DNA from: an uncultured Eubacteriales bacterium
GTDB lineage: Bacteria; Bacillota; Clostridia; Lachnospirales; Bianqueaceae
Assembly: GCA_902783575.1 (NCBI GenBank)
Contig: CACZRP010000068.1
Span: 1-33,878, forward strand
Direction of reading: 5' to 3'
Length of the DNA stretch: 33,878 bases
In this document: piece after piece, positions 2,915 to 11,390 of the stretch
Position numbering within the stretch: position 1 is the stretch's first letter
Layout: each line of letters begins with the position of its first letter
Translations under genes and position numbers: made by a program
The notes under the pieces: generated by a model
Databases searched by the model: none
The model's input: only the letters and a program-made list of their open reading frames with translations
Told to the model about the DNA's origin: nothing

Positions 2915-2992
2915 GTAGGAAGTCTATAGTTTTTAGCATATTCTTCCTACTTTACAGTAGGAAGTATTGCTGTTTTCCTGAAAACTTCCTAC
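2915..2992. repeat. Array C: two 36-bp 7-22-7 palindromic-arm units (arm GTAGGAA)
   Basis: Unit C1 is 2915-2950 (arms 2915-2921 and 2944-2950). Unit C2 is 2957-2992 (arms 2957-2963 and 2986-2992). Each has GTAGGAA, exactly 22 bp of core, then the perfect reverse complement TTCCTAC; the gap is 6 bp (TTTACA). Alternative pairings exist: the inner arms make an 8-bp stem (2943-2950 with 2957-2964), and the outer ends make a 13-bp inverted repeat (2911-2923 with 2984-2996). The array lies between convergent gene ends. It has the same geometry as the arrays at 10590-10923 and 11006-11390 but a different arm sequence. Confidence 0.8.
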
Positions 2993-10456: not shown

Positions 10457-10536
10457 TCTGCCAAGGGCAGAGTTCCATGAAAAATCAAGAATATTTCTCT
10501 GCCAAAAGCAGAGTTCCATCAATATCAAGACTATTT
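10457..10536 (+). repeat. Imperfect 40-bp tandem direct repeat containing small hairpins
   Basis: Copy 1 is 10457-10496 and copy 2 is 10498-10536, differing at a few positions. Each begins with a stem-loop: TCTGCC-AAG-GGCAGA (10457-10471) and CTCTGC-CAAAA-GCAGAG (10497-10513). The base changes in the stems are partly compensated. They share CTGCC/GCAG words with the cores of the following arrays but do not fit the 7-22-7 arm geometry. Confidence 0.7.
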
Positions 10537-10589: not shown

Positions 10590-10923
10590 TCATGAATTTT
10601 TCCTGAAACAGGCAGTTATTCATTATTTTTCATTTTTTGGCTTGTTTTTCATAATGAAGATTTCCTGATATTGGCAGTTTCTCATTATCTTCTTTTTCGA
10701 AGCCAGGCGGCGCTGCCCTGTCGTAATGAACTTTTCACCTATACAGGAATTTTACATGACATAAGCAAAGTTCGTCTGGTTGATGATAATGAAAAACTGC
10801 CTCATACGTGAAATCTTCATTACTCAAAAAAAACCTGTAATGATAAACTGCCTGTGCAGAGAATTGTACATGACAAAAAATCGGGTTTCATGAGAAACTG
10901 CAAAATATAGGAGATTTTCATTA
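10590..10923. repeat. Array B: six 36-bp 7-22-7 units (arm TAATGAA-like)
   Basis: Units: B1 10590-10625, B2 10652-10687, B3 10724-10759, B4 10787-10822, B5 10838-10873, B6 10888-10923; the gaps are 26, 36, 27, 15 and 14 bp. Arms read outside-in are TAATGAA or close variants (TCATGAA, TAATGAG, TAATGAT, TCATGAG, TCATGTA). Every core is exactly 22 bp and follows nATTTCC, about 9 variable bases, then GCAGTTT in one orientation (B1, B2 forward; B3-B6 reversed). Several cores contain a small stem-loop, for example CCTG-AAA-CAGG in B1 and CTGC-CTGT-GCAG in B5. The region is AT-rich and has no plausible gene. Confidence 0.85.
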
Positions 10924-10931
10924 CGGACTAT

Positions 10932-10988
10932 TGTTACCCTGCATGGGTTCAGTCACCAAAAGTGTTACCCGTAAGGGGATCAGACATC
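10932..10988 (+). repeat. Pair of 26-bp imperfect direct repeats starting TGTTACCC
   Basis: Copies at 10932-10957 and 10963-10988, period 31, with 19 of 26 positions identical, including TGTTACCC and GGGnTCAGnCA. They lie exactly between arrays B and A. The arrangement recalls the repeated transposase-binding sites near ends of some insertion sequences (IS21-type ends begin TG), but no transposase or second end is visible, so this is only a possible remnant. Confidence 0.5.
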
Positions 10989-11005
10989 AACCGAAAAAAA
11001 AGGGC

Positions 11006-11390
11006 TCGAGGATTTTTCCTGATATTTGCAGTATTCCTCGATTTTCAAACTTTTTGCTTGTTTTTCTTCGAGGATATTTCACGGCAGAGGCAGTTTTCCT
11101 CGATCGCATTTTGAGGAGGCATTCCTGGCTGTCTATTTTTCGAGGATTTCTCTGCTATATGGGAATTTTCCTCGAAGCGAGCATGCAGCTGCAGTCCAAG
11201 GTTCGAGGATAACTGCTTCATAAGTGAATTTTCCTCGAAGCGCATAATTGTCGTCGAGGAAAACTCCCTGCCGCGTGAATTTTCCTCGATAAAAAAATGA
11301 CGATCGAGGATATTTCGCTGCAGATGCAGTTCTCCTCGATAAAAAAAACAGCGATCGAGGATTTTTCCTTATATGAGGAAATTTCCTCAT
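11006..11390. repeat. Array A: seven 36-bp 7-22-7 units (arm TCGAGGA)
   Basis: Units: A1 11006-11041, A2 11068-11103, A3 11140-11175, A4 11203-11238, A5 11254-11289, A6 11304-11339, A7 11355-11390; the gaps are 26, 36, 27, 15, 14 and 15 bp. Thirteen of fourteen arms are exactly TCGAGGA (or TCCTCGA on the right); only the last arm, TCCTCAT, differs. All cores are 22 bp and follow the same nATTTC...GCAGTTT plan as array B. A1-A5 match B1-B5 in core sequence and orientation (A4 and B4 share AACTGC, TCATA and GTGAA). Apical stem-loops are visible in A4 (TTCA-TAAG-TGAA), A6 (CTGC-AGAT-GCAG) and A7 (TTTCCT-TATATG-AGGAAA). No gene lies in this stretch. Confidence 0.9.

Follow-up and report, generated by a model that had tools for sequence, protein, structure and literature searches.

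Arrays of inverted-repeat units with fixed geometry and helical phasing were observed in the window, by which the whole stretch of 33,878 nucleotides analysed here is meant. They point to an undescribed protein-and-site system in gut and rumen Clostridia, in which DNA arrays would be paired with cognate PD-(D/E)XK-like proteins; the arrays in the window are quite probably dispersed copies of such gene-linked arrays. No description of them was found in the open-access literature on REP-like, intergenic and nuclease-associated repeats. An earlier note, made from the sequence alone, was right in its main points, and its interpretation is partly supported overall; the six- and eight-unit composites, the helical phasing, the position-by-position homology of elements A and B and the gene partner go beyond it.

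Composite architecture and abundance of the arrays

The units that the earlier note had described, each with a 22-bp core between 7-bp inverted arms, were found where it had placed them (Table 1): thirteen together, namely six of element A, six of element B and one degenerate B unit, and two of element C elsewhere. Arm pairing, described there as exact or nearly so, is exact in six B units (0.00 expected in the window), while the arms of A (TAATGAA/TCATGAA in the window) pair imperfectly. The core ATTTCC...GCAGTTT that all units were said to share is present in about half of them; the others carry its reverse or a nearly symmetric form, and the C cores in the window are not of this type. The two C units (2915-2992) represent a remnant of an eight-unit element.

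Table 1. Positions of the repeat elements and their units in the window.
Feature	Positions	Strand	Description
Element A	10590..10923	+	six 36-bp dyads, start-to-start 62-72-63-51-50, arms TNRTGA(A)
A unit 1	10590..10625	+	
A unit 2	10652..10687	+	
A unit 3	10724..10759	+	core near-symmetric
A unit 4	10787..10822	-	reverse-orientation core
A unit 5	10838..10873	-	reverse-orientation core
A unit 6	10888..10923	-	
Element B	11006..11339	+	six exact dyads TCGAGGA-N22-TCCTCGA, start-to-start 62-72-63-51-50
B unit 1	11006..11041	+	
B unit 2	11068..11103	+	
B unit 3	11140..11175	+	core near-symmetric
B unit 4	11203..11238	-	reverse-orientation core
B unit 5	11254..11289	-	reverse-orientation core
B unit 6	11304..11339	+	
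B unit 7, degenerate	11355..11390	+	51 bp past unit 6; 50-bp period by tandem-repeat finder
C unit	2915..2950	-	corresponds, in reverse, to unit 6 in the contig C89 copy of C; arms GTAGGAA/TTCCTAC
C unit	2957..2992	-	corresponds, in reverse, to unit 1 in the contig C89 copy of C; distance to the other C unit 42 bp

Copies of A and B are composites of six units with fixed start-to-start distances (62-72-63-51-50), in which the first five cores run forward, forward, near-symmetric, reverse and reverse, whereas the sixth is variable, being near-symmetric in most B copies and reverse in most A copies; the two elements are frequently adjacent. Element C has eight units, whose spacing is mirror-symmetric (42-53-42-64-42-53-42) in two copies. 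Among 15 copies of B, identities of 96-100% were observed for the arms, 52-77% for the cores, 53-72% for the spacers and 28-29% for the immediate outer flanks, with constant spacer lengths of 26 bp (15/15 copies), 14 bp (15/15) and 36 bp (13/15). The geometry is under selection, as had been proposed, because the spacer lengths are fixed while the spacer sequence diverges. No target-site duplication was found, and synteny was not kept in an empty-site comparison with congeners. Two other repeats occur beside these elements, a tandem repeat of 41 bp that contains a small hairpin (TCTGCCAAGGGCAGA / TCTGCCAAAAGCAGA) and adjoins element A at 10457-10536, and a 31-bp repeat present twice (TGTTACCC...GGG.TCAG) between A and B at 10932-10990.

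In the 2.5-Mb genome, a fragmented assembly that is 86% complete and in which several contigs end in arrays, 96 exact B units were counted at about 19 places, some of them partial, with 0 in the reversed control; C has 39 units at 8 places (reversed control 0), and A occurs at about 11 places. An arm-free scan of 859 kb gave 22 same-arm clusters of at least three units at gap 22 as against 0 in eight order-3 Markov replicates, and none of the other gaps scanned, from 3 to 60, approaches gap 22. Chance, which the earlier note had named as the test of its reading, is excluded by these three comparisons, the units being far commoner than expected.

The search with free arm sequence, likewise suggested beforehand, revealed further families of this geometry. 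This genome has D (GGAGGAG), E (TGTACACAA) and F (TCACAGA, gap 19); the congener G005 has CTTGTYA and TACATCC (gap 23), and the uncultured Clostridiales RUG159 (G017) has TCAAGGA and TGGGTCT. In their core profiles, A and B are similar to TCAAGGA, CTTGTYA and C (p 0.0005-0.02) and unlike E and TGGGTCT, although the sets are small and the result is weak. When TCRAGGA arms were compared with the GTDB contig collection, only the RUG159 matches were real and the rest were judged single chance matches.

Linkage of the arrays to a protein family

On contig C21, an E array lies directly upstream of the gene for a 257-residue protein without a Pfam match, and through this gene a paralog family was reached that has seven members in this genome and occurs in 18 of the 19 genomes of the taxonomic family. 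An array, defined as one 6-mer present at least four times in each orientation, was detected in 16 of the 71 flanks (500 bp) of 38 paralog genes; for other genes the figure is 5 of 1128 flanks (Fisher 7e-17), and the enrichment persists when the two previously known loci are left out (p 9e-15). Distances from array to gene, taken at the nearest edge, are about 20-270 bp among related genes of several genera, and the dyads at paralog arrays mostly span 35-39 bp, with exceptions of 31 bp (L301) and 30 bp (L314). No clear array lies within 500 bp at roughly half of the paralog loci, a number of which stand at contig ends. The 16 exclude cases with looser arms that were recognised by visual inspection: a D array lies 3' of the C85 gene, and similar repeats lie 3' of the paralogs at G017 C75, G000 C83 and G016 C274 and of one on a human-gut contig (L321). 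A B array was observed 85 bp upstream of a paralog gene on contig C66, and this gene (G000:C66:6517-7287) is probably the partner of B; no partner gene was found for A or C in this 86% complete assembly.

As for placement, the genes on either side are convergent at 14 of 18 array-bearing regions versus 17% of neighbouring gene pairs, where 13 were assigned by predicted genes on both sides, the fourteenth counts the tRNA-Ala gene beside the C90 array, and genes were called by a simple custom script, not a published gene finder. The genes flanking the arrays have no common function, and these neighbours are ordinary and unrelated.

In the mechanism that we propose, the two inverted arms of each 36-bp dyad would be read by a sequence-specific dimeric protein, most likely a cognate paralog of this unnamed PD-(D/E)XK-like family, and with units whole helical turns apart the bound dimers would align on one face of the DNA as a nucleoprotein array. 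Each protein would bind its own cognate array; near the gene, such binding may autoregulate, and dispersed copies would be held mostly between convergent genes, where they would be tolerated or useful. Spreading of the arrays by a nuclease activity of the protein is plausible. The arms are conserved in old copies, which suggests that binding still matters and may still be of use to the host, unlike what would be expected of a purely dead repeat.

A protein that only regulated its own gene and a regulon through the arrays, with no part in their spreading, would suit the arrays found directly upstream of a gene (the B, E, V, TACATCC, TCACCAA and AAGCAGAA cases). This is unlikely, however, as in more than half of the cases the gene precedes its array, and the dispersed copies are found mainly between convergent genes, at a distance from promoters.

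Helical phasing of the units

For 20 arm families from more than 10 genomes, the spacing of units has a period of 10.6-10.7 bp, the best between 6 and 16, with a phase near 0 (R 0.73, p 0.00025; p 0.001 across all periods tested). The signal therefore resides in DNA and not in RNA. The earlier note had left the choice between binding site and folded nucleic acid undecided; the evidence favours a DNA site bound by protein.

The idea that transcribed arrays fold into hairpins that process or stabilise convergent mRNAs, or form one large structured RNA, appears quite unlikely, even though the arrays are located at the 3' ends of genes and element B folds well on both strands (z -8.1 and -6.7). 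These folding scores were set aside because any set of inverted repeats yields them. Changes in the B arms are one-sided (3-8 versus 0-1 compensated per position), the mismatched pair of A unit 6 is retained in 10/10 aligned copies, and complementarity among the cores within one copy is no greater than between cores of different copies, with 3 of 42 tests nominally below 0.02 and no consistent copy-specific signal. Long-range pairing between units gave no copy-specific signal, and no Rfam match was found. The same arm sequence in about 100 units, together with 10.6-bp phasing, is unexpected for RNA stems.

Exchange of arms and their proposed specificity

Between the consensus sequences of A and B, the cores agree at 22/22 positions in unit 1 and at 15-18/22 in units 2-6, and the order and spacing of units are alike, yet each of the twelve arms is different. 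Of the sister elements in the congener G005, the one at a single locus has the arm CTTGTTA, and those elsewhere have CTTGTCA. The arms thus switch jointly on a retained scaffold and are near-invariant across dispersed, diverged copies, which is to be expected of arms read by a trans-acting factor and not of mere stems. Under the proposed recognition by a cognate protein, the arms would change together because they follow the specificity of that protein.

Each paralog has an arm of its own, unlike those of other paralogs, and in two species pairs the orthologues keep a common arm (TAGCAAG; AAGCAGAA). Several repeat families do cluster in the regions concerned, so that arrays and nuclease-like genes might simply gather in permissive, repeat-rich intergenic sites without mutual recognition; this is improbable, since one private arm per gene is not a random sample of the arms of the genome, the arm is retained between orthologues of different species, and arrays are about 50-fold more frequent in the flanks of paralog genes than in those of other genes.

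More tentatively, with doubt slightly outweighing belief, the cognate pairing of arrays and proteins may constitute a new class of system, in which several PD-(D/E)XK-like proteins per genome, each specific to its own array, spread these helically phased dyad arrays along the chromosome and occupy them, and specificity switches by wholesale exchange of the arms on a conserved scaffold. Several pairs of paralog and arm per genome provide a natural series for the study of changes in DNA specificity and, were this proposal true, a possible source of new sequence-specific binders; it would also account for a large share of the repeats found between convergent genes in these Clostridia.

The probable partner protein

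The family comprises PD-(D/E)XK-like proteins of about 260 residues with many paralogs. In an alignment of 31 members (A3), the N-terminal half is variable and the C-terminal domain contains SKSE, PDF and EHxG motifs, with conserved acidic positions at E162, D192 (in PDF) and E207. The lysine of the ExK motif is not in its usual place, where EHxG is found instead, and the nearly invariant K224 may substitute for it. With the canonical lysine displaced, nuclease activity is uncertain and the domain may be catalytically dead. One paralog, L319 (G000:C70), is without the conserved PD and RSKSE motifs and is possibly decaying or repurposed.

The C-terminal domain is similar to the C-terminus of the candidate defence protein PDC-S68 (1e-28, PADLOC), with which it has the SKSE...PDF...E arrangement in common. 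Other PD-(D/E)XK models matched more weakly, T7 endonuclease I, at E 0.17, is no more than a lead, and no solved homologue was found by sequence at E below 0.1. The C-terminal arrangement presumably also resembles that of TnsA. From PD-(D/E)XK nucleases such as these, the partner proteins differ in standing alone at about 260 residues, in their N-terminal half and in their many paralogs per genome, many of them beside an array, with no helicase or transposition partner seen.

Comparison with known repeat systems

Checked criterion by criterion, the arrays fit neither CRISPR repeats nor REP/BIME elements nor integron attC sites, as had been stated. Integron attC sites have 7-bp outer complementary boxes and a variable inner part, and the units are like them in this; the boxes differ in sequence, no cassettes were found, and the integrase model TIGR02249 scored below its cut-off in this 86% complete genome, as in control genomes, in agreement with the absence noted earlier. 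A CRISPR array would have a constant direct repeat and unrelated spacers all of one length; here, cores and spacers are position-conserved between copies, and the spacing within one element varies from 50 to 72.

Like REP/BIME elements with their RAYT proteins, the arrays are multi-copy, extragenic, palindromic and composite, dispersed and located at the 3' ends of genes; members of the protein family adjoin their own version of the repeat, and repeat and protein vary together. The C arms moreover start with GTAG, and Y1 proteins are present in the genome. Nevertheless, an ordinary REP/BIME family spread by a Y1 (RAYT-type) transposase is very improbable. The arms are separated by 22 bp (B, C, D, T, W), whereas loops of at most 11 nt are used in REPs (PMC12306157), and the REP head GT(A/G)G (PMC2817692) is absent from most arm families (A, B, D, E, V, T, W), only C starting with GTAG. 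The RAYT-like gene (L187) has no array in its vicinity, only one of three IS200-type genes is near an array (L190, an E array), and the gene linkage of the arrays is to another protein family. The enzyme is PD-(D/E)XK-like here and HUH in RAYT; the arms, about 20-22 bp apart, form a dyad that mostly spans 35-39 bp, as opposed to a tight hairpin; and, unlike REPs, the units form helically phased arrays of about 4-10, with arms wholly different between related elements. If the pairing with PD-(D/E)XK-like proteins is true, it would represent a second, independent solution to the RAYT/REP role, by a host-resident nuclease-like protein with its own dispersed repeats.

The RAYT-like Y1 protein at L187 (8095-8337) has a degenerate HUH motif, and relatives of it occur in most genomes of the taxonomic family, with arrays absent nearby in the loci inspected.

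Mobile-element collections and additional repeats

No match to the array DNA was found in the plasmid and phage collections. Among viral contigs, the B arms and the C arms had one match each, both judged unrelated, the W arms had none, and no relative of the protein was confirmed.

A long array with arms TTGTCACAGA/TCTGTGA, gap 19 and a period of about 53 was observed at L109 (4930-5680) and L261 (5768), for which a partner gene was not found. A palindrome of about 170-190 bp (CCTTTGCCTGGCTTAA ... TTAAGCCAGGCAAAGG) recurs near arrays, at L106 (6640-6830) and L109 (5700-5870), and adjoins two nuclease-like paralogs, being 3' of the gene at L318 and upstream of it at L320.
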